Assembly: GCA_016215705.1 (NCBI GenBank)
Contig: JACRIR010000203.1
Span: forward strand, 1-12,397
Source of the DNA: Candidatus Poribacteria bacterium
GTDB lineage: Bacteria; Abyssobacteria; SURF-5
Length of the DNA: 12,397 nt
Direction of reading: 5' to 3'
Positions 584-10,898 of this stretch are shown here, piece by piece. The translations under genes were made by a program, and so were the position numbers. Each line of letters begins with the position of its first letter. Positions within the stretch are counted from its first letter, which is position 1. The notes beneath the pieces are model-generated. The model was not told where the DNA came from. It worked only from the letters and a program-made list of their open reading frames with translations, and did not search any database.

Positions 584-1330
584 GTGATCGAAGTACGCAA
601 CCTCGTCTTTAAGTATAACAGCGATATTGTATTAAATGACGTTTCGTTCACGCTCGAAAAGAACGAGACAACCGTCGTCATCGGGCGGAGCGGCGTGGGC
701 AAAAGCACGCTTCTACGGTGTATCCTCGGCCTTGTGAGGCCGCAATCAGGCAGCATCATGGTCGAGGGGACCGATGTTACCAGGATAAGCGAAGAGGAAC
801 TCAACCTTATCAGGCGCGATTTCGGGATGCTGTTCCAGAGTGCGGCCCTCTTCAACTCGATGACCGTCGGCGAGAATGTCGCGTTTCCAATCCGCCAACA
901 TCGGAATTATGACGAAAAGACGATTCAGACGACAGTGAGGCAGAAGCTGGAGCTCGTCGGCCTCGAGGGCTGCGAAAGCATGATGCCCTCTGAACTCAGT
1001 GGTGGCATGAAGAAGCGCGCGGGCCTTGCAAGGGCGTTGGCGCTTGATCCAAAATGTTTGTTTTTCGACGAACCCATCGCGGGCTTGGACCCGATAATCG
1101 CAAATGGCATCGACGAGCTCATTTTGAGCCTAAAGAAGGTCTCGGGAATGACCATGATGATTGTGACTCATGAACTGTTGCACGGTTTCAAGGTGGCCGA
1201 CAAAGTAATCATGATCCATGAAGGCTCGGTTATTGCGGTCGGCACACCCGCCGAGATAATTCAGAGCAAAGACGAGAACGTGCACCATTTCTTGAGAGGC
1301 ATTCCTGACACCAAGACAATAATCAGATGA
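584..1330 (+). CDS. mlaF: MlaF-type ABC transporter ATPase (phospholipid/MCE transport)
   Basis: This is the cytoplasmic ATPase that powers an MlaFED-type lipid transporter together with the MlaE permease and the MCE protein MlaD. The 248-residue product contains Walker A GRSGVGKST (34-42), the Q-loop region GMLFQ (81-85), the signature LSGGM (138-142), Walker B CLFFDEP (158-164), the D-loop LDP (168-170) and the switch histidine (196). The signature continuing as LSGGMKKR is typical of the Mla/Ttg2A branch. I chose GTG at 584 because GGAGG lies at 572-576, 7 nt upstream, and the protein then begins VIEVRNL as in relatives. An in-frame TTG at 545 has no such support. The gene ends in an ATGA overlap with the next gene, suggesting translational coupling. 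Function is firmly assigned by family; the exact lipid substrate is not known. Confidence 0.95.
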   Translation: MIEVRNLVFKYNSDIVLNDVSFTLEKNETTVVIGRSGVGKSTLLRCILGLVRPQSGSIMVEGTDVTRISEEELNLIRRDFGMLFQSAALFNSMTVGENVAFPIRQHRNYDEKTIQTTVRQKLELVGLEGCESMMPSELSGGMKKRAGLARALALDPKCLFFDEPIAGLDPIIANGIDELILSLKKVSGMTMMIVTHELLHGFKVADKVIMIHEGSVIAVGTPAEIIQSKDENVHHFLRGIPDTKTIIR

Positions 1331-2847
1331 CCCACTTTGCTCCCCTCCTCGCGCTACTCGAGACAGCCACAAAGTGGTGGCGCCGTTTGATATCTACAGA
1401 AGCAATCTTTCTTGCGGCGGCTCTTTCCTTCATTCCGCTCCTGCCATCTTCGGCTTCTTCCGCTCTTGCCTCTGAAGAGAGTTCAAAAACGCAGGAAATC
1501 TGGCCTGTCTATTCATCTGCGGGCGAGGAAGGAACTGTTCTCGATTATTCAATCTGGCCTTTCCTGGCAGTCGAGCGGACGCCTGAGTGGAAGCAGTTCT
1601 CTCTCAGACCGTTCTATGTTAAAAGAGAGGCGCTAGACGGGTCGGAAGAGAGAATCCAGTTCCTTTGGCCTGTTTACCTCTATAAACGCTCTGAAGAGGA
1701 CGTCACTGTTCGGGTACTGCCGATATATACATATCGCAAGGATGTCTATCCCTACGAAGACGGACATGAATACAAGGTCAACTACATGCTGTTCCCCTTC
1801 TTGTTCGGCGGCAGTTCCACTGACGAGGGGGGATACTTCGCTTTTTTCCCCATAGGTGGGAACATCAAGGATTTTCTGGGACGCGACAAAATTCGGTTCT
1901 ACCTGTTCCCGCTCTACTACGAGTATTCCAAGAACGAGCTTCGCCAGCGCAACTACCTCTGGCCGGTATTGTCGTTTTCCGGCGGAGGTGATTATAATGG
2001 TTTCAGGCTTTGGCCGCTCTATGGGTACTCTGAAAAGCAAAATGAGTATCGGAAGGAATTTGCGCTGTGGCCGTTCTATCATCATCAGAAGTTTGACCTT
2101 GATAAGGAGCAAAGTGGCGAGCGAACTATGGTCTTCCCGCTATATGCTCGCGAGGACAGCGAGAGGAGGCGCTATCGGGCGTTTCTCTGGCCGTTGTTTT
2201 CGCGTGAGGAAAACTATGCGCGAAACTTCGAGGAGTATTCGGCTCCTTGGCCTTTCGTTACTATCTCAAGAGGAGAAGACATCAGCCAGACGCGGATATG
2301 GCCTCTTTACGGACATACGGAAACGAACGACTCGGAAAAGAGCTTCGTGCTTTGGCCCCTCTATTATCGAAACATCTTCACGCTCGACAGCGACACGGAA
2401 AGACGCGAGACGCTTCTGTTTCCGTTCTGGTCATCCCAGAGCGTGCTTTCCGGGTCAAAAGGGACAATAAGGCAAAAGTCCAGATTTTGGCCGTTTTGGA
2501 AGTATCGCAAGTTTGAGGACGGCGCGACATATACGAGGATACTCTCCCTGCTTTGGTTCGATGATGAGGAAGGTTTTGAGCGGCAGTATTCGCCTCTATG
2601 GACAATATATGAGCGCGAGACCGAGCCTGACGGAAGCAGCCACACATACGCACTTTGGCGGCTTTACAGGCATAAACAGACCGCCGACGGTTCAGAAACC
2701 CGAATTCCGCTCCTGTTCTCGCACAGTGAAGATGCTGCGACCGCATCCGGGGATACGACCATTCTCGGCGGAATCCTTGGCTCGAGCAGAGACGGAGACG
2801 AGCGCAGGCTGCGGATTCTGTATTTCATAGACATTCCATTTCAGTGA
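1327..2847 (+). CDS. Secreted W-P repeat protein of unknown function in the mla operon
   Basis: I do not recognise a named family. The 506-residue product has an N-terminal stretch with basic residues (WWRR, 17-20) and a hydrophobic segment (about 25-47) ending ALA-SEE, which fits a signal peptide. The rest consists of about 22 copies of a short core, [W/F/L]-P-hydrophobic-aromatic. Cores sit at 59, 77, 94, 114, 131, 156, 174, 194, 212, 229, 248, 270, 288, 308, 325, 343, 365 and 388, with degenerate copies to 464. Spacing is mostly 17-20 residues, with charged Asp/Glu/Ser/Gly/Asn-rich turns between. This suggests a repetitive beta-strand structure in the periplasm or outer membrane. There are no cysteines or obvious catalytic motifs. 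The start ATG overlaps the mlaF stop (ATGA), so the two are probably co-translated; mlaE follows after 169 nt. A role in the MCE transporter, perhaps as an envelope partner, is inferred from position only. Confidence 0.88.
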   Translation: MTHFAPLLALLETATKWWRRLISTEAIFLAAALSFIPLLPSSASSALASEESSKTQEIWPVYSSAGEEGTVLDYSIWPFLAVERTPEWKQFSLRPFYVKREALDGSEERIQFLWPVYLYKRSEEDVTVRVLPIYTYRKDVYPYEDGHEYKVNYMLFPFLFGGSSTDEGGYFAFFPIGGNIKDFLGRDKIRFYLFPLYYEYSKNELRQRNYLWPVLSFSGGGDYNGFRLWPLYGYSEKQNEYRKEFALWPFYHHQKFDLDKEQSGERTMVFPLYAREDSERRRYRAFLWPLFSREENYARNFEEYSAPWPFVTISRGEDISQTRIWPLYGHTETNDSEKSFVLWPLYYRNIFTLDSDTERRETLLFPFWSSQSVLSGSKGTIRQKSRFWPFWKYRKFEDGATYTRILSLLWFDDEEGFERQYSPLWTIYERETEPDGSSHTYALWRLYRHKQTADGSETRIPLLFSHSEDAATASGDTTILGGILGSSRDGDERRLRILYFIDIPFQ

Positions 2848-3016: not shown

Positions 3017-3802
3017 ATGGGCAGGCTGGTGCGGTTTGTGGGCGCCCGGCTCATTTACCTCTTTGAGACCACGGGCGACGTTCTCATTCTGTTGAAGAAG
3101 ACTCTTTTCTATTGCAACAGAGCCGTCGGAAGTCGTTCGAGGATTCTTAAACAGATGTCTTTCATCGGCGTCGACACTCTTCCCATCGCCCTGCTCATGG
3201 GCTTTTTCGTGGGCATGGTGCTCGCTTTGCAAACAGGATATCAGTTGCTCAGATTCAATATCGAGAACATCATCGGAGCTATTGTGGGGCTTTCGCTTGC
3301 AAAAGAACTCGCCCCGGTTCTCACGGGATATCTGGTGGCCGGACGGGTCGGCGCCGCCATCACGGCGGAAATAGGAACAATGCAGATTTCCGAAGAGATT
3401 GATGCGCTTCGCGTCATGGGAGTGGACCCGGTCTATTACCTGTCGATGCCGCGCCTGATTGCAGCCGTATTCATGATCCCGATCGTCGTCATCTATGTAA
3501 ATCTTATCGGCATGTTCGGGGGCGCTATTATCTCGGCGAGCTACGTCGGAGTCGGGATGCGCAGCTATTTCGACAACTTGTTTGACGCAGTCACGTTCAG
3601 CGAAATATTCAGGGGTCTCATCAAGGCCATGTTCTTCGGCGGAATTGTGGCCACTATCGGGTGCTATAAAGGGTTCAAGACGACGGGAGGCGCTGAGGGC
3701 GTCGGCAAATACACGACTCAGTCGGTCGTTCTGTCTTTCATTCTTATTATCGTGTTCGACTATTTTCTTTCTCGAATTCTCCTGTTCAAAGTGTTCGAGT
3801 AA
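3017..3802 (+). CDS. mlaE: MlaE-type permease of the phospholipid ABC transporter
   Basis: This is the inner-membrane permease that pairs with MlaF and MlaD to move phospholipids between inner membrane and periplasm. The 261-residue length is normal for the family. An amphipathic N-terminal region (about 1-50) precedes hydrophobic segments at roughly 55-75, 84-106, 146-176, 200-216 and 235-256. The family hallmark is the conserved stretch from ELAPVLTGYLVAGRVGAA (97-114) through EIGTMQISEEIDALRVMG (118-135), followed later by the GCYKGF...GGAEGVGK motif (215-231). AGGAG at 3007-3011 is well placed for the ATG. No STAS-domain partner (MlaB) is encoded in the window, so the gene may act without one or use one elsewhere. 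Confidence 0.97.
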   Translation: MGRLVRFVGARLIYLFETTGDVLILLKKTLFYCNRAVGSRSRILKQMSFIGVDTLPIALLMGFFVGMVLALQTGYQLLRFNIENIIGAIVGLSLAKELAPVLTGYLVAGRVGAAITAEIGTMQISEEIDALRVMGVDPVYYLSMPRLIAAVFMIPIVVIYVNLIGMFGGAIISASYVGVGMRSYFDNLFDAVTFSEIFRGLIKAMFFGGIVATIGCYKGFKTTGGAEGVGKYTTQSVVLSFILIIVFDYFLSRILLFKVFE

Positions 3803-3857
3803 TGGCGCTTGGGGACATGAGATTCATCGAACTCATTGAAAGGAAGGCCGGTCAATC

Positions 3858-4895
3858 ATGTCGAAAGAAATGAAAGTGGGCATATGCTTCATTTTGGGGA
3901 TGGTCATTCTCGCCGGGCTGACGTTCTACGCCGGTGGCTTTGACGACTGGCTCAAGAAGCGGTACAAAATCAGCGGCTATTTCGAGAGAGTTGACGGACT
4001 CGAGAAGGAAGATGTCGTGACACTCGCAGGTGTCGAGGTGGGTGAGGTTGGTGACATGCGGGTCAAAGAGAACCGCGTGCAGGTTACACTTCTCATCAAT
4101 GGAGACACGGTTCTCCACAAGGATTCTGTCGCCCGAATCGAGAGCGAGAGCTTGCTCGGCGGGAAATATGTAAGCATAACCGTGGGCACACCCGGTGCTC
4201 CACGACTCAAGGAAGGAGACGTCATACAAACTCAGGAGGCCGCCGACCTGGCGAAAATCCTTCAAAACGTCGCCGACGTAAGCCAGGACCTGCGGACGAT
4301 GATAACCAGCTTCAATAAGAATCAGGAGACAATCGCGGGACAGATTCAGGACGTTCTGGGCGAAAACCGCGAGAATATCCGCAAGAGCTTCGAGTCGCTT
4401 GCGCGTATTACGACCGACAATGAACAGAATATCAAGGAGGCTCTTGCTGCGCTGCGCGATGCCGGCCCAATGCTCAAGGAGACTATGGAAAGCGTGAGCA
4501 ACATCACGCGTAAAATAGAGCGGGGCGAGGGCACTATTGGCAAACTGGTCCAGGACGACTCTCTGTACAACGACATGAAGAATCTCTCCGCAAGCCTGAA
4601 AGAGGCCTCGGGCACGGTCACTCGTATTATGGGTGACAACGAGAAGGACATAAGAGTCGTCGTCTCGTCGCTGAAGGAAGCTGCGCCGAAACTCGAAAAG
4701 AGCATGGACAGGATTGACGCTATCACTCAAAAAATTGAAAAAGGAGAGGGCACTCTGGGTAAACTCGTACAGGATGAGACGCTGTACAAAGAAACGACGC
4801 GCATGCTGAAAGAGGCGCGTCATGCGGCCGAAGACGTCCGTGAACAGGTTCCGATCATTACGTTCACGAGCGTCATTTTCGCGGCATTCCAATAG
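3858..4895 (+). CDS. mlaD: MlaD-type MCE-domain substrate-binding protein
   Basis: This is a periplasmic MCE protein anchored by one N-terminal membrane helix (about 6-24). It binds phospholipid above the MlaE permease as a ring. The MCE domain spans about 36-126, with YKISGYFERVDGLEKEDVV and the AGVEVGEV motif (57-64). Residues 127-330 are predicted mostly helical and probably extend the channel. Within this part a roughly 51-residue unit is duplicated (187-237 and 260-310), each copy ending in GEGT-[IL]-GKLVQD-x-x-LY; a third, partial unit starts near 169. The C-terminus is hydrophobic (VPIITFTSVIFAAF). At 345 residues it is much longer than E. coli MlaD and resembles the long, coiled-coil-tailed MCE type. 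AGGAAGG (3841-3847) supports ATG 3858; ATG 3870 is a weaker alternative. It is the third core transporter gene of this operon. Confidence 0.96.
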   Translation: MSKEMKVGICFILGMVILAGLTFYAGGFDDWLKKRYKISGYFERVDGLEKEDVVTLAGVEVGEVGDMRVKENRVQVTLLINGDTVLHKDSVARIESESLLGGKYVSITVGTPGAPRLKEGDVIQTQEAADLAKILQNVADVSQDLRTMITSFNKNQETIAGQIQDVLGENRENIRKSFESLARITTDNEQNIKEALAALRDAGPMLKETMESVSNITRKIERGEGTIGKLVQDDSLYNDMKNLSASLKEASGTVTRIMGDNEKDIRVVVSSLKEAAPKLEKSMDRIDAITQKIEKGEGTLGKLVQDETLYKETTRMLKEARHAAEDVREQVPIITFTSVIFAAFQ

Positions 4896-4963
4896 GAACT
4901 CGAACACGCGAAACATGCAATGACCTCCTGCGAAAGTGGCGTTGTTGATTTAAGGAGAATCAC

Positions 4964-6268
4964 ATGCTCGAGAAAGTCGTTATCGTGGACGCTTGTCGTT
5001 CCGCCAATGCTCGCGCCTCCAGAGGCTCGTTCGTTCACAAACGCATAGATGTTCTTGCCGCAGAAATCCTGAAAGCCCTGCTTGACCGCAACCCGCAGGT
5101 CGATCCTCGAATGATCGAGGACGTACGGATCGGTTCTGTGGTTCAGGGCCAGTTGATTCGTGGCGGTGGCAAAGGCATCGCGGGGGTCGCGGGTTTGCCC
5201 GATACCATACCCGGCTCCGGAACGAATCGGCAGTGCGGTTCAAGCATGGACACCTTCCAGCAGATAGTTGCCTTCATTGCCGCAGGCATGATAGACATCG
5301 GGATCGCAATGGGCGCAGAAAAAATGGCGCAGACCTTGGTGAGGCTCTCTTTTGATGTGCCCGGGATTCTGCCGGGCCTCGGCGATGTTCCGCCGCCGTC
5401 AGCGGTGCAACTGAGCATGGAACCGGACCACTCCGAAGTTTACTCGAAACCCTTCCCCGAGTATATCCTCAAAGCGCCACGCATGGTCGGGATGCCGCAA
5501 ACAGCGCAGAATATTGCTGAAGTATATGGGATGACGCGGGCGGAACTCGACCTGTACGCATACAAGAGCCACATGAAAGCTGCCAGGGCAGCCAAGGAAG
5601 GGAAGTTCAAGGATGAAATAATTCCGGTAAGAACGCACAAGCCTCTCTTCAACGAAAAAAAAGAGATCATACCCGACCAGGTAGGGGAGGAGTTTACTTT
5701 CGACCGGGACGAGTGCATCCGGCCCGAGACGACGCCCGAGGCATTGGCCAAGCTCCCGCCTTTGAAAATTGTGCAGACTTACTCTCCGGACGGCAAGGAG
5801 GTAGTGATCACCGCCGGCAACTCGTGTCCGACAAACGATTCTGCCGCTGCAGTTCTTGTCATGTCAGAGAAGAGAGCCAACGAACTCGGGCTAAAACCGC
5901 TGGCGCGAGTCAAATCAATGGCGGTCGCTGGAACCAAACCCCAGTTGATGGGCATCGGCCCCATCCCCGCCTCGAAAAAGGCTCTCGCTAAGGCAGGGCT
6001 CAAAGCAAGCGACATAGATGTCTGCGAACTCAACGAAGCATTTGCCTCGCAGGCGATCGCGAGCATCAACGACATCGGTCTCAATCCGGACAATGTCAAT
6101 GTCAATGGTGGCGCGCTTGCGTTGGGTCATCCGCTCGGGCAGAGCGGATGCAGACTCTTGACGACGATGGCGCACGAGATGAAGCGGCGTCCGGCTGCTC
6201 GTTACGGTCTTGCGACCATGTGCATCGGCGGCGGCCAGGGCATCGCTACGATTCTTGAAAAGTGCTAG
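4964..6268 (+). CDS. Thiolase (acetyl-CoA C-acyltransferase/acetyltransferase family)
   Basis: Thiolases cleave 3-ketoacyl-CoA with CoA, or run in reverse to condense acyl-CoAs. The 434-residue product carries the nucleophilic Cys91 in NRQCGSS, the NEAF motif (357-360), His389 in GGALALGHPLGQSG (382-395) and the second active cysteine Cys420 in CIGGGQG (420-426), so the full catalytic set is present. It is some 40 residues longer than the usual 390, with extra sequence around 130-175 in the region covering the active site. The GN-S-x-x-ND motif reads GNSCPTND (285-292). AAGGAG at 4952-4957 precedes the ATG by 6 nt. The gene lies 68 nt after mlaD on the same strand and may be co-transcribed, hinting at lipid metabolism. 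Whether it is degradative or biosynthetic cannot be told. Confidence 0.95.
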   Translation: MLEKVVIVDACRSANARASRGSFVHKRIDVLAAEILKALLDRNPQVDPRMIEDVRIGSVVQGQLIRGGGKGIAGVAGLPDTIPGSGTNRQCGSSMDTFQQIVAFIAAGMIDIGIAMGAEKMAQTLVRLSFDVPGILPGLGDVPPPSAVQLSMEPDHSEVYSKPFPEYILKAPRMVGMPQTAQNIAEVYGMTRAELDLYAYKSHMKAARAAKEGKFKDEIIPVRTHKPLFNEKKEIIPDQVGEEFTFDRDECIRPETTPEALAKLPPLKIVQTYSPDGKEVVITAGNSCPTNDSAAAVLVMSEKRANELGLKPLARVKSMAVAGTKPQLMGIGPIPASKKALAKAGLKASDIDVCELNEAFASQAIASINDIGLNPDNVNVNGGALALGHPLGQSGCRLLTTMAHEMKRRPAARYGLATMCIGGGQGIATILEKC

Positions 6269-6357: not shown

Positions 6358-6396
6358 TTATTCGGAGACACCATACGGAGTTATGTCCCCGTATGA
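6358..6396. repeat. Degenerate GGGGACA-type palindromic element at the end of mocA
   Basis: CATACGG (6372-6378) and CCGTATG (6389-6395) form a 7-bp stem with a 10-nt loop. The flanks ATTCGGAGACACC and GTCCCCG resemble the arms of the perfect hairpin at 8154-8196 (ATTCGGGGACACC). The element lies between the convergent thiolase and mocA genes and supplies the mocA stop codon. It may form the 3' end structure for either transcript, although no U-run follows. Confidence 0.6.
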
Positions 6397-7086
6397 GAAA
6401 TTATTTGGTTCCCGCATGCAAGGTGTTGTGGAATACCGCTCGAGTATCCTCTGATAATCCTCCCGCGTGTCCATGTCGAAAACCACTCCTTCATCATTGA
6501 CGTCAAGGCAATGTACTTCTTTCGAATGCCTTCGGATCAGATCCCTAAGTGTTCGGACTGCGTCGATCTCTGCTAGAATTTCTCTCGGCAAGAGCGGGGG
6601 ATGCCCTCTTTTCCCTTTATGAACAGGTAGGATTATCGCGCCGGGCCTTTCAGCGTGACAGCGGCGCATGCCCATGAATGTCTCGGCCTTCACCAGAGGA
6701 TGGTCAGCGAGGCAGATGAAAATACCGGGGGAGGCGGGGTTAATCTTCTTGAGGCCGACCCGAACAGACTCGCACATGTCGGCCTCAGGTGTCTCGTTTT
6801 GGACCACGCGGATGGTGGACGGTCGAAAGTCGAAGGTCGGAGCGAATCTGTCAGATTCAGGAATCCGGTTCCTGACCGTGATCGGTGTAAATGCCTCAAT
6901 AGCCTGTAGTATCTCGTCACTGTTGGAGCCGACCACGACCACAATATCGTCTATCCCGGCTCCTCTGATGGTTTCAAGACAGTGGACGATGACAGGCCTC
7001 TCGCCAAGAGGTAGAAGCTGTTTTGGTTTGCCCATTCTCTTCGACGAACCTGCTGCAAGAAGAATGGCTGAGACCTCATGAGACAT
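6358..7086 (-). CDS. mocA: MocA/MobA-like molybdenum cofactor nucleotidyltransferase
   Basis: The enzyme likely joins CTP to molybdopterin, making the cytosine dinucleotide cofactor used by xanthine-oxidase-family enzymes. The nucleotide-binding loop LLAAGSSKRMGKPKQLL (9-25) is intact. ADHP (127-130) stands where relatives have the metal-binding D-[QH]-P, and GKRGHPPLLP (158-167) is the family motif; FDMDTREDY (203-211) closes the domain. Two parts look foreign. Residues about 72-93 form an extra segment encoded by TCGAAAG-type repeat words, and the last 12 residues are encoded by a palindromic element. The start codon overlaps the end of xdhC by 11 nt, with AGGAG-like sequence about 6-10 nt upstream. 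Pairing with xdhC and iorAB supports MCD rather than MGD synthesis. GTP-specific MobA is the alternative. Confidence 0.9.
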   Translation of the reverse strand: MSHEVSAILLAAGSSKRMGKPKQLLPLGERPVIVHCLETIRGAGIDDIVVVVGSNSDEILQAIEAFTPITVRNRIPESDRFAPTFDFRPSTIRVVQNETPEADMCESVRVGLKKINPASPGIFICLADHPLVKAETFMGMRRCHAERPGAIILPVHKGKRGHPPLLPREILAEIDAVRTLRDLIRRHSKEVHCLDVNDEGVVFDMDTREDYQRILERYSTTPCMREPNNFSYGDITPYGVSE

Positions 7087-7873
7087 TGCCTCTCCTCTTC
7101 TGGATGATCTGCGCCATGATACTTATCGCGATTTCTTCGGGGGTAACCGAGCCTATCGGAAGACCGACAGGAATGATGACCCGTTGTATATCGTCATCCG
7201 AGAATCCCTCACCGCTGAGCGTCTTGAAGAGCATCTCTCGCTTCCGTTTGCTTCCAACGAGACCTATGTAACATGCTTCCGTTTTGAGAGCCGACCTCAG
7301 TGCATCGAGGTCGTGATTGTGCCCTCTTGTCGCGATGACGACGTATGACCTTTTGTCAACGGTTACTCTTGTTGTGGGCGGAGGTTCGTTCCCGCAATCA
7401 GAGAAGACATTCCGGAAATCGTTCACGACGACATTGTGTGCGTCAGGCACATTCTCCTTGTTGGCGTATTCTTCCCGGTCATCGACCACCGTTACTCTGA
7501 AGCCCGAAAACTCCGCCAGCGACGACAGCGCTTTCCCCACATGACCCGCGCCGAGGATCACTAGATGGGGTTCGGGAACTACAGGTTCTATATACACTAG
7601 TATTTTCCCTCCGCATACGAGTCCGCCCTCTTTCCCGTTGAGATTGAATGGGACGGTCGCCGGAGAGCCGTCCCTCATCGCCAACATCGCAGAGTGAATA
7701 ACCTGAGCTTCGATGCAGCCGCCTCCGAGTGTTCCCATAGTAGTCCCGTCATCCCTCACGAGCATTTTAGCGCCTGTTTTCTGCGGAGCTGAGCCTATGC
7801 ATTGCACAATCGTGGCAATCGCAGAATACTTCTCTTCTCTTTTGAGTCTCAGAACCTCTTCAAAGATTTCCAT
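7076..7873 (-). CDS. xdhC: XdhC/CoxI-family molybdenum hydroxylase maturation factor
   Basis: XdhC-type proteins bind the molybdenum cofactor, protect it during sulfuration and deliver it to xanthine-oxidase-family enzymes. The N-terminal XdhC/CoxI domain shows GSAPQKTGAKMLV (27-39) and GTLGGGCIEAQV (47-58). A cysteine motif VCGG (86-89) follows. The C-terminal Rossmann-like domain begins VILGAGHVGKAL (105-116) and includes TRGHNHD (182-188), YIGLVGSKRK (202-211) and PVGLPIGSVTPEEIA (235-249). The length (265) is normal. A GAGG lies about 5 nt before the ATG. It overlaps mocA by 11 nt, so the two are coupled, and it lies downstream of the IorA/IorB-like genes on the same strand, the likely client enzyme. 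The 398-nt gap to iorB leaves open whether it has its own promoter. Confidence 0.93.
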   Translation of the reverse strand: MEIFEEVLRLKREEKYSAIATIVQCIGSAPQKTGAKMLVRDDGTTMGTLGGGCIEAQVIHSAMLAMRDGSPATVPFNLNGKEGGLVCGGKILVYIEPVVPEPHLVILGAGHVGKALSSLAEFSGFRVTVVDDREEYANKENVPDAHNVVVNDFRNVFSDCGNEPPPTTRVTVDKRSYVVIATRGHNHDLDALRSALKTEACYIGLVGSKRKREMLFKTLSGEGFSDDDIQRVIIPVGLPIGSVTPEEIAISIMAQIIQKRRGNVS

Positions 7874-7922
7874 GAGGACCTCGCTGCTAAATACAGACTT
7901 TTATAGATTGAGACTTTGTATC

Positions 7923-7949
7923 GTAGGGGCGACTCGCCGAGTCGCCCTA
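7923..7949. repeat. GTAGGGGC-family palindrome, copy 1
   Basis: GGGCGACTCG (7927-7936) and CGAGTCGCCC (7938-7947) are perfect 10-bp arms around one base, flanked by GTAG and CTA. It shares its outer GTAGGGGC with copies at 11218-11241, 11262-11285 and 12200-12227, but has a different core (GACTCG). Confidence 0.8.
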
Positions 7950-8023
7950 TAAAGAGCAAACAAATACGTCACCGTGTTTGTGAAATGCCTGCCAAGTAGC
8001 TATTGTAGAACACGGCGCAGCTT

Positions 8024-8049
8024 GTCATTCTTGCGAAGCGAAGAATCTC
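8024..8049. repeat. GCGAAGCGAAGAATCTC dispersed repeat, copy 1
   Basis: TGTCATTCTTGCGAAGCGAA followed by GAATCTC matches a dispersed repeat phrase that I recall from many environmental genomes. ATTCTT and AAGAAT form its short arms. A second, diverged copy in the same orientation lies at 8202-8227; similarity continues into the next bases (CCCTTTCGTC versus TCTTTGGTC). Confidence 0.65.
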
Positions 8050-8153
8050 CCTTTCGTCGTTGCCCTCTTTCTTAGGAGCGCCTGATCGCGCCGCAACGTG
8101 GCTAACGGTGCAAGAAACGCCCCTTAATTCGAGGACATGATCCCCCGTCGTCA

Positions 8154-8196
8154 GCTTATTCGGGGACACCTTGCGGCAAGGTGTCCCCGAATAAGC
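8154..8196. repeat. Perfect 20-bp hairpin, GGGGACACCTTG arms
   Basis: The 20-nt arms 8154-8173 and 8177-8196 are exactly complementary around a 3-nt loop (CGG). Each carries TTATTCGGGGACACC. No U-run follows on either strand, so it is not a standard terminator, though it could stabilise the 3' end of the iorAB message. It is related to the degenerate element at 6358-6396 and is probably a REP-like mobile palindrome (inference). Confidence 0.85.
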
Positions 8197-8201
8197 GGGT
8201 G

Positions 8202-8227
8202 TTCTCAGAAGCGAAGCGAGGAATCTC
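8202..8227. repeat. GAAGCGAAGCGAGGAATCTC dispersed repeat, copy 2
   Basis: This is a diverged second copy of the 8024-8049 element, same orientation, six bases after the 20-bp hairpin. Confidence 0.6.
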
Positions 8228-8271
8228 TCTTTGGTCTCTTCTAGCCCCAAACCCCAAACCTTAAACCGACT

Positions 8272-10437
8272 TCACGCCGTTCTCAATTCCTCGGCGCGGA
8301 TTGGCAAACTCCGGATGCGCTTGCCGGTCAGAGCGAAGACCGCGTTACAGACGGCCGGCGCGATCGGCGGCACACCCGGCTCCCCGATACCGCCCGGTTT
8401 TTCGTTGCTCTGCACGATGTGTGTTTCCACTTCGGGCATCTCGCTAATGCGCACTACCTCGTAGGAATCAAAGTTGTCTTGCTGTACCTTACCGTCTTTG
8501 AGCGTGATCGCCCCGTAGAGGGCCGCAGAAAGGCCGTAGACGATTCCTGATTCCATCTGCGCGGCGATAGTGTCGGGGTTCACCACTCGGCCGCAGTCGA
8601 CCGCACAAACCACTTTGTGAACGCGGACGTTACCCGCCGGATTCACCGATACTTCTGCAACCTGTGCGATAAAGCTTCCGAACGACTCGTGCACGGCAAT
8701 GCCGCGTGCGTGTCCCTGTGGCAGCGGCTTATCCCAACCGGCCTTTGTTGCGGCAAGCTCGAGTACTCCGCGATTACGCGGGTGCGCCGTGAGCAACTTA
8801 CGGCGGAACTCATATGGGTCTTTGCCTGCCGCATTTGCAAGTTCATCTATAAAGCTTTCGACGACGAAGGCTGTGTGAGAATGACCGACGGAGCGCCACC
8901 ACTGCACGGGCACGCCGATTTTCGGGCTGTGCAAATCCACAAGAATATTCGGGATGGCATAGGGAATCTCTGCGGCCCCTTCGACGGAGGCGCCGTCAAT
9001 CCCGTTCTTGATGCCCATTGCCTCAAATGGCGTTCCGGCCATTATTGATTGGCCGACGATGGTGTGCCGCCATGCGACCGGATTTCCGTCCGCATCGAGC
9101 CCCGCTGCGAGCCGGTCATACCACATGGGCCGGTAGTATCCGCCTTTCATGTCGTCTTCGCGCGTCCACATCACCTTTACCGGCTTCTTTACCGCTTTGG
9201 CAACGTGCGCCGCCATGACCACAAAATCCGAGTGGGGATTTGCCCGCCGCCCGTAACCGCCACCCAGGAATGTGGTGTGAACTTTGACCTGCTCGGACTT
9301 GAGTCCGACGATTTGAGCCGCGGCGTTTCTATCGCCGGTCTGAAATTGAGTGCCGGTCCAGATTTCACAACTGTCTGGCTTGAGATCGATGGTGCAATTG
9401 AGCGGTTCCATGGTGGCGTGGGCCAGGTAAGGAACTTCATACTCGGCGGCGATCTGCTTTGCGGCTTTTGTGAGTGTCTGCTCGGGGTCGCCTTCCTTGC
9501 GGGCGACGGCGCCGGCTGTCTTGGCGAGGCTTGCGTATTGTTCGCGCATTCCGGTCGTAGAGAGCCCGGCGTTCGGTCCGTCATCCCAAACGATCTCCAA
9601 TGCCTCGCGTCCGCTTGTCGCTGCCCAAAAGTTGGTGGCCACGACCGCTACGCCCGGCTCGATCTGGACAACCTCTTTCACACCGGGAACTTCTTTAGCC
9701 TTCTCTGATTTGAAGCTTTTCACCTTTCCGCCGAAGACGGGTGGACGTGCAACCACGGCAACAAGCATGCGCGGGATATTAATGTCGATGCCGAAGACCG
9801 CCTTACCATTTGTCTTCTCCGGGGTATCAAGACGTTTCGTGGGTTTGCCTACCAGTCTGTATTCGGATGGGTCCTTGAGCTGGACGCTTTCCGGCGCCGG
9901 CATTCCGGATGCTTTTTCCGCCAGTTGGCCGTACGTCAGGCTTTTGCCGCTCGTATGGATGACGAGGCCATTTTGGGCGCGACAACTTGCTTTGTCCACA
10001 CTCCACGTTTCGGCAGCCGCGGCAATCAGCATTTCACGTGCGGCTGTGCCTACCTTCGAGAGCCGGTCCCATTCGGTTCGCACGCTTGTGCTCCCCCCGG
10101 TCCCCTGGGCGCCCCATTGGGTATGGTTATAGACGGGGTCTACCGGGGCCGCTTCCACGTGTACGGCGCGCCAGTCGCATTCGAGCTCCTCTGCGACGAG
10201 CATTGGCAGAGACGTGTAGACTCCCTGTCCCATCTCCGACTTGTTGACAATGATGGTCACTATATCATCGGACCCGATATGAACAAAGGCATTTGGCAAG
10301 ATCGGTGTTGTGGGTTGCGCCGCCGTCTCGGCCAGGGACTCGCGCTCCGGCAGGTGGAGGCCGAGCACCAGGCCTCCTCCGAGCACGGCGCTCGTCTTTA
10401 TGAAGTCCTGGCGGCTTATCTTTATGATCTCGGTCAT
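8272..10437 (-). CDS. IorB-like molybdopterin-binding large subunit (xanthine oxidase family)
   Basis: This is the catalytic Mo subunit of a two-subunit hydroxylase of the isoquinoline 1-oxidoreductase/aldehyde oxidase type, which hydroxylates heterocycles or oxidises aldehydes. The true substrate is unknown. The 721-residue length fits IorB. Cofactor-binding motifs include EMGQGV (68-73), [14 protein letters not shown] (107-120) and FLGGGYGRR. The catalytic glutamate is Glu686 in [10 protein letters not shown] (682-691). The N-terminus ([21 protein letters not shown], residues 6-26) is a Tat-like leader, but the second arginine is Gln10 instead of Arg. Electrons would pass to the [2Fe-2S] subunit, whose gene overlaps by ATGA (10434-10437). 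No FAD subunit or cytochrome gene is adjacent. xdhC and mocA downstream on the same strand fit its maturation needs. Confidence 0.95.
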
Positions 10438-10898
10438 TTCGTCCCTCCCTCAGCCATCACTGCGGCTGCCCGATGAATGGCGTGGCGAATGCGCTGATAA
10501 GTTCCGCAACGGCAGATGTTGCCGGACATGAAATTGTCGATGTCCGCGTCAGTCGGTTGTGGTTTCTCGTTCAGCAACGCAATCGCGGACATGATTTGTC
10601 CCGAATGGCAGTATCCGCATTGAGGCACATCGTCGGCGATCCACGCCGTTTTGATAGGATGATTCTCGGGAATCCCTTCTATGGTAGTAATCTTCTTGCC
10701 CTCCGCGTCTTTCACCGGTATCTGGCATGACCGTTCGGCCTTGCCGTCGATATGAACAGTACAAGCGCCGCACTGAGCGATTCCGCATCCATACTTGGTG
10801 CCCGTGAGGTTGATTCTTTCCCTGATTACCCAAAGAAGCGGCGTATCAGGGGTTACATCCACGGTGTGCTTCTGGCTGTTGACTACGAGCGAGATCAT
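10434..10898 (-). CDS. IorA/CoxS-like [2Fe-2S] small subunit
   Basis: This is the electron-transfer subunit of the molybdenum hydroxylase encoded next to it. The 154-residue protein has the usual two domains. An N-terminal plant-ferredoxin-type cluster uses Cys38, Cys43, Cys46 and Cys58 ([16 protein letters not shown] region). A C-terminal helical domain carries the second [2Fe-2S] centre with Cys94, Cys97, Cys129 and Cys131 ([10 protein letters not shown] and [11 protein letters not shown]). All eight ligands are present. The start is well supported by AGGAGGAGG (10912-10904), 5 nt before the ATG. It is first in a minus-strand unit and its stop overlaps the large-subunit start by ATGA, implying coupled 1:1 synthesis. 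Lack of a signal peptide is normal: the small subunit usually travels with the Tat-exported large one. Confidence 0.96.

Follow-up and report, generated by a model that had tools for sequence, protein, structure and literature searches.

A W-P hairpin-repeat protein encoded with MlaEFD-type MCE transporters: a candidate component for the distal end of long MlaD

Results

The W-P gene is embedded in an mla operon

We analysed a stretch of 12,397 nucleotides (the window; contig JACRIR010000203.1) from Candidatus Poribacteria bacterium, in which an mla operon carries an additional gene for a protein with tryptophan-proline (W-P) repeats. The operon runs in the order mlaF, W-P gene, mlaE and mlaD (Table 1). 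As the initial annotation had it, the W-P gene is placed between mlaF and mlaE, and its start shares an ATGA overlap with the end of mlaF. The frame of mlaF is already open from position 545, the likely start being a GTG with GGAGG upstream, and the gene is 78% identical to mlaF of a second genome (G002). MlaD has one MCE domain (residues 36-109) followed by a long helical region, and a C-terminal barrel is absent. Judged by the Pfam scores, an MlaE permease, an MCE-domain MlaD and an ATP-binding cassette (ABC) ATPase are encoded together, which classifies the operon as an MlaFED-type MCE transporter with a predicted role in lipid transport. On the strand opposite mlaD, a 354-aa open frame (3852-4916, minus strand) covers almost the whole gene and is probably a by-product of codon usage.

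Table 1. Positions of the genes and protein features in the window.
Feature	Position	Strand	Remarks
mlaF, ABC transporter ATPase	584..1330	+	PF00005, E 1.4e-34, 120 bits
W-P repeat protein gene, 506 aa	1327..2847	+	candidate MCE-transporter component
N-terminal extension and signal-like hydrophobic segment	1327..1470	+	by inspection; putative cleavage after ..SSALA, residue 48
Mature W-P chain, ~458 residues	1471..2844	+	~44 short beta-strands, forming about 20-22 hairpins tipped by W-P or F-P (predicted by AlphaFold2)
Most conserved block, FFPxGG-x-LGRD-x-F-LFPLY (F174, P175, G178, G185, D187, P195, Y197)	1840..1917	+	family landmark outside the plain repeat
mlaE, permease	3017..3802	+	PF02405, E 7e-80, 268 bits (cut-off 22.5)
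mlaD, 345 aa	3858..4895	+	PF02470, E 6e-17, 62 bits (cut-off 25.1)
Hydrophobic C-terminal MlaD tail, EQVPIITFTSVIFAAFQ-stop	4842..4892	+	co-occurs with the W-P protein
Acetyl-CoA C-acyltransferase (thiolase)	4964-6268	+	directly downstream of mlaD
MocA-like cytidylyltransferase	6358-7086	-	
XdhC-like maturation factor	7076-7873	-	
Mo-binding subunit, aldehyde/xanthine oxidase type	8272-10437	-	
[2Fe-2S] subunit	10434-10898	-	
Small exported-looking protein, 96 aa	11490-11780	+	rich in Tyr, Pro and Gly (PYYAPRVVYAVPAPAYYYYPP...)

The repeat was compared with 20,000 shuffles of the same residues. The mature W-P chain holds 17 strict cores of the type hydrophobic-P-hydrophobic-hydrophobic, against a mean of 1.5 and a maximum of 8 in the shuffled chains, and 15/24 successive prolines are 16-23 residues apart, where 3.8 were expected and 11 was the maximum. 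Since both the core count and the proline spacing exceed the shuffle expectation, the repeat is real. The initially proposed number of about 22 cores is reached only if degenerate versions (LWRL, LRPF, SPLW) are included. The signal-like segment agrees with the earlier assignment as an exported protein, and export is predicted for the family, with lipoproteins in some lineages.

W-P proteins form a distinct family

A protein search of 60 genomes detected W-P in three distant lineages and, at 52-60% identity, in both other genomes of the family to which the window genome belongs. The W-P profile was positive in 18/386 genomes sampled across Bacteria and in 110/394 genomes of one large phylum; it was also found in every genome sampled from two tiny phyla and in 2/3 of a third. 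Named carriers, identified with a five-sequence alignment as query, comprise Candidatus Abyssobacteria SURF_17 (from the family of the window genome), a Nitrospirota metagenome-assembled genome (MAG), a Schekmanbacteria genome, an unclassified bacterium and four Planctomycetota MAGs. The single window protein gave no matches as a query for close relatives, and a diverse alignment yielded no usable pattern. No W-P relatives were found on plasmids.

Whole-length alignment of 23 members revealed invariant positions, among them P175, G178, P195, P230, W248 and P249. Together with the non-repetitive conserved block, this alignment argues for conservation of the whole ordered chain, beyond a shared composition. 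None of the 23 proteins matched any Pfam family at E 0.1, including the MlaA domain PF04333, the PqiC family and the MORN motif, which bears out the earlier observation that the protein is unlike the known Mla parts. Searches of NCBIfam and of sequences in the PDB gave nothing above cut-off for the W-P protein. The closest NCBIfam model was the LA_1737 family of Leptospira (NF047486): the window protein scored 15.5 bits, under the curated cut-off of 60 bits, and 9/23 W-P proteins matched weakly (best E 2.5e-7), none being seen to pass that cut-off. A search of 386 genomes with NF047486 returned no matches and is uninformative, as the controls were negative too. For a second Leptospira model, NF047463 for Mce, the alignment with W-P-linked MlaD includes the C-terminus up to the last position. 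By sequence, both models look like remote counterparts of W-P and of the MlaD linked to it, and Leptospira may carry the pair. Taken together, the profile searches show that W-P is a distinct family at the sequence level, covered by no curated Pfam or NCBIfam model. A description of the protein was not found in the open-licence literature, preprints excluded; the class of transporter is known, and the W-P component is new as far as could be checked.

W-P genes are recurrently linked to mla genes

Recurrent linkage to mla genes was found across many lineages, with many deep-branching bacteria among them, and the homologues do not lie mostly away from MCE operons. Altogether, about 90/103 W-P loci adjoin mlaE, mlaF or mlaD, in at least three gene orders. 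In a first survey, 17/19 loci had an mla gene as same-strand neighbour; for the other two, mlaD was 4.7 kb away in one case and the locus was on a contig of 3.3 kb in the other. Three of the four Planctomycetota loci were mla-linked, the fourth being cut by the contig end. In the second survey, 69/80 loci had a same-strand mlaE, mlaF or mlaD no more than 600 bp away, and a seventieth (L172) joins them once its run of N is recognised. An apparent MlaD-W-P fusion at this locus (genome G604) was rejected: the joint falls within the N run, and a normal MlaD tail ends before it. For the ten remaining loci, MlaD is encoded elsewhere in the genome; they include L123, which borders the end of its contig, and L196, a weak second copy. 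MlaD was found in all W-P genomes tested (19/19 and 14/14), and in 34/34 genomes searched.

The commonest gene order is E-F-D-WP, next to F-WP-E-D in the family of the window, WP-E-F-D, and E-x-x-F-D-WP. In the latter operon of G043 (L010:2329-3792), two extra open reading frames of 235 and 250 aa separate mlaE from mlaF, and a similar gap is present in G060-G062. Linkage by itself can be inherited, so that W-P might be a passenger that follows the mla genes by gene order without any functional link. We regard this as highly improbable, as the gene orders vary among lineages and the association with a particular feature of MlaD, described below, persists when the genes are unlinked.

W-P co-occurs with a hydrophobic tail of MlaD

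MlaD proteins encoded beside W-P end in a short, nearly uncharged hydrophobic tail, e.g. EQTPITVLGTLLGLFF-stop, or EQVPIITFTSVIFAAFQ-stop in the window. A rule describing this tail was matched by 85/86 of these proteins, the exception being an N-run artefact, and by 0/39 MCE proteins in 20 genomes of the same phylum that lack W-P. The unlinked cases matter most, because here the pairing of tail and W-P holds without gene adjacency. Where W-P is encoded away from the mla genes, 8/9 genomes contained exactly one tailed MlaD, and six of these own only one MCE protein. Among the W-P genomes of the first survey, 2/16 unlinked MlaD paralogues were tailed; they belong to G140 and G272, whose W-P genes had no mlaD next to them. 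A tree of the MCE domain separates tailed MlaD uncleanly, and with so short a domain it does not decide whether they form one clade.

The window genome encodes a second MlaD outside the window (G000:C141:22145-22378, L069; a frame of 380 aa), which is tail-less. Long MlaD proteins from W-P-negative genomes of the same phylum (L232, L233, L237, L239, L243, L251, L252) have C-termini that look barrel-like by eye, e.g. FFGAGFTFTDDDLKYLLTSVPL. Such C-termini are perhaps an alternative to the tail together with W-P.

Because W-P co-occurs with tailed MlaD even when the genes are unlinked, the case for an MCE-transporter component is strong: W-P is very probably part of an MCE system, and a functional pairing with the MlaD tail is likely. 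The initial proposal of an undescribed component of such a transporter thus gains support from fold, linkage and tail co-occurrence.

W-P is predicted to fold as a ribbon of short hairpins

AlphaFold2 modelling of the mature window protein with nine sequences gave a predicted local distance difference test (pLDDT) of 83.9, a predicted template modelling score (pTM) of 0.54 and 44 strands, most of them six residues long. A Nitrospirota homologue (36% identical) showed the same strand pattern (pLDDT 83.8, pTM 0.62), and both models share a single helix near residue 370. One repeat corresponds in both to a hairpin of two strands of about six residues with the W-P motif in the tight turn, the alternate loops being mostly charged. 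The structure prediction suggested at the outset has therefore returned a regular beta fold in two models, and a disordered or cytoplasmic fold was not seen. Of the even, strand-length periodicity claimed earlier, the regular spacing stands, and the repeat is predicted to be a two-strand hairpin rather than one long strand. The hydrophobicity of strand positions alternates most clearly in the C-terminal hairpins (0.88 at T458 and 1.00 at I460 vs 0.00 at E457 and 0.06 at R459), suggesting that one face of the protein is hydrophobic near the tips. The models thus predict a long open ribbon of about 20 hairpins, one edge lined by the aromatic tips and the opposite edge by charged loops.

The nearest folds of the window model were the CPAP G-box (Z-score 13.4, root-mean-square deviation (rmsd) 5.5 over 149 residues) and Morn1 (12.8, 4.5 over 166), followed by ApoB100 (11.6, 5.3 over 222) and OspA (10.6, 4.0 over 171). 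CPAP, OspA and Morn1 were again nearest to the model of the Nitrospirota homologue, with Z-scores of 9-11. Overall, the single-layer sheets match with Z-scores of 9-13 over ~150-170 residues at an rmsd of 4-9 Å, a likeness of arrangement only. Propeller proteins, IFT and LRP were discarded as folds at Foldseek TM-scores of about 0.1.

The spacing of about 20 residues, the aromatic-rich repeats and the aromatic/hydrophobic strands at the C-termini of several homologues would suit an outer-membrane beta-barrel, in which each repeat forms one transmembrane strand of a pore of about 22 strands, a translocon partner like TGD4 or LptD. We consider this very unlikely. Both models place the proline in a turn and show strands of about six residues, compared with about 9-12 for transmembrane strands, and solved barrels match poorly (rmsd 14-29 Å for LptD-type barrels, 7-18 Å for porin and usher). 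A central proline in nearly all transmembrane strands would be unusual. Of the initial suggestions for its place in the envelope, a transmembrane barrel is not favoured by the models.

An elongated single-layer sheet with one-sided hydrophobicity could alternatively span the periplasm and carry lipid along its own hydrophobic stripe to the outer membrane, as LptA/TamB-like proteins do. Fully extended, ~44 strands at 0.48 nm would reach roughly 21 nm, the approximate scale of the periplasm. Such a bridge seems unlikely to us: judged by its length, the helical region of the linked MlaD should cross by itself, a closed groove or taco fold does not appear among the structural neighbours listed, and the tail co-occurrence points to docking at the distal end of MlaD. 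The best-matching folds (CPAP G-box, MORN, OspA) are single-layer sheets exposed to solvent, and W-P co-occurs with an MlaD feature; both points would also fit a scaffold or collar wrapped around the MlaD needle, stabilising it in the periplasm and having no role at a membrane. This role appears rather improbable, as the feature in question is at the extreme C-terminus, off the needle shaft, and the aromatic tips and the lipobox in a subset of homologues speak against it.

This lipobox (e.g. LILASGCATS) was detected in about 23/107 W-P homologues, none with Asp at +2, which fits sorting to the outer membrane by the E. coli rule. No lipobox was found in the window protein. Homologues without it carry ordinary signal-like segments where inspected.

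Other genes in the window

A molybdenum-hydroxylase cluster occupies positions 6358-10898 on the minus strand, and its genes are listed in Table 1 with those of the thiolase and of the small exported-looking protein. In the family's two other genomes, the thiolase gene was not seen next to mla genes.

Discussion

The reading that we favour, with a probability of about 55%, is that W-P is a conserved fourth component of MlaEFD-type transporters with a long barrel-less MlaD, docking it on the outer-membrane side. Since the tail that co-occurs with W-P is the distal end of MlaD, we infer that the role of W-P is to attach the MlaD tip to the outer membrane. MlaE, MlaF and MlaD would form the known or predicted inner-membrane pump with its MCE ring, from which the long MlaD would extend as a helical needle. 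At the needle's far end, the six MlaD tails could dock on the W-P ribbon, whose aromatic tips would keep this end in place at the outer membrane's inner leaflet, assisted by a lipid anchor where a lipobox exists. W-P would link the tunnel to the outer membrane in this way, substituting for MlaA/MlaC or for the C-terminal barrel that a long MlaD may itself provide. Direct handling of lipids by W-P is a more doubtful proposition.

Several points weigh against docking on the outer-membrane side. The tail rule was framed after viewing the linked set, and the unlinked and W-P-negative sets were scored later. The Fisher value for co-occurrence of tail and W-P (p 1e-31) is overstated, because the genomes are related and not independent. 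In one genome (G538; 85% complete), whose W-P gene borders a contig end, no tailed MlaD was found. The majority of homologues have no lipobox. Single-chain models from nine-sequence alignments with a pTM of 0.54-0.62 leave the curvature and the oligomeric state unfixed, and the contact between W-P and MlaD, the outer-membrane location and lipid binding or transfer are all inferred.

Docking by W-P would answer a question raised by the majority of bacterial MlaD proteins, which are long and mostly barrel-less: how they reach the outer membrane without MlaA/MlaC has been left open, and a long barrel-less MlaD may need 'as yet unidentified proteins' distally (PMC10665443). W-P is a concrete candidate for such a reach in Candidatus Abyssobacteria, Nitrospirota, Schekmanbacteria and Planctomycetota, and in one further phylum more than a quarter of the genomes sampled carry it. 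The conserved block supplies a landmark for a family outside the curated Pfam and NCBIfam models.

MlaA was found in 3/19 W-P genomes and MlaC in the same three; 16/19 have neither. In G065 and G310, MlaC shares a contig with a short MlaD of 155-158 aa, away from the W-P locus, and in G065 MlaA is on this contig as well. The rarity of both proteins agrees with the published view that MlaEFD with a long MlaD is the older core and MlaABC a later addition (PMC10665443).

Comparison with known systems

The nearest functional parallel is PqiC of the PqiABC system, which like W-P is encoded with an MCE transporter. PqiC forms a lipoprotein ring at the outer membrane, is embedded in the inner leaflet with a lipophilic surface and receives the C-terminus of the PqiB needle (PMC10897342); W-P may play the same part. 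The two differ in build: PqiC is an octameric ring of a ~20 kDa lipoprotein, whereas W-P has a mature chain of ~458 residues made of all-beta hairpin repeats, is a lipoprotein in a subset only, and shares no Pfam family with PqiC. MlaA and MlaC of the canonical Mla system have no sequence relation to W-P, and the proposed common role is the linking of MlaFED to the outer membrane. The MlaEFD system of Veillonella (PMC10665443) resembles the W-P systems in its three genes, the lack of MlaA/MlaC and a long MlaD that reaches the outer membrane, but its MlaD has a C-terminal beta-barrel of its own, where the W-P systems combine a short hydrophobic MlaD tail with an additional protein. The likeness to LA_1737 of Leptospira is weak and below cut-off. 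Finally, the CPAP G-box, MORN, OspA and the ApoB100 beta-belt, open single-layer antiparallel sheets of short hairpins, resemble the W-P models in arrangement only; there is no sequence relation, and the alignments span about a third to half of the W-P chain.
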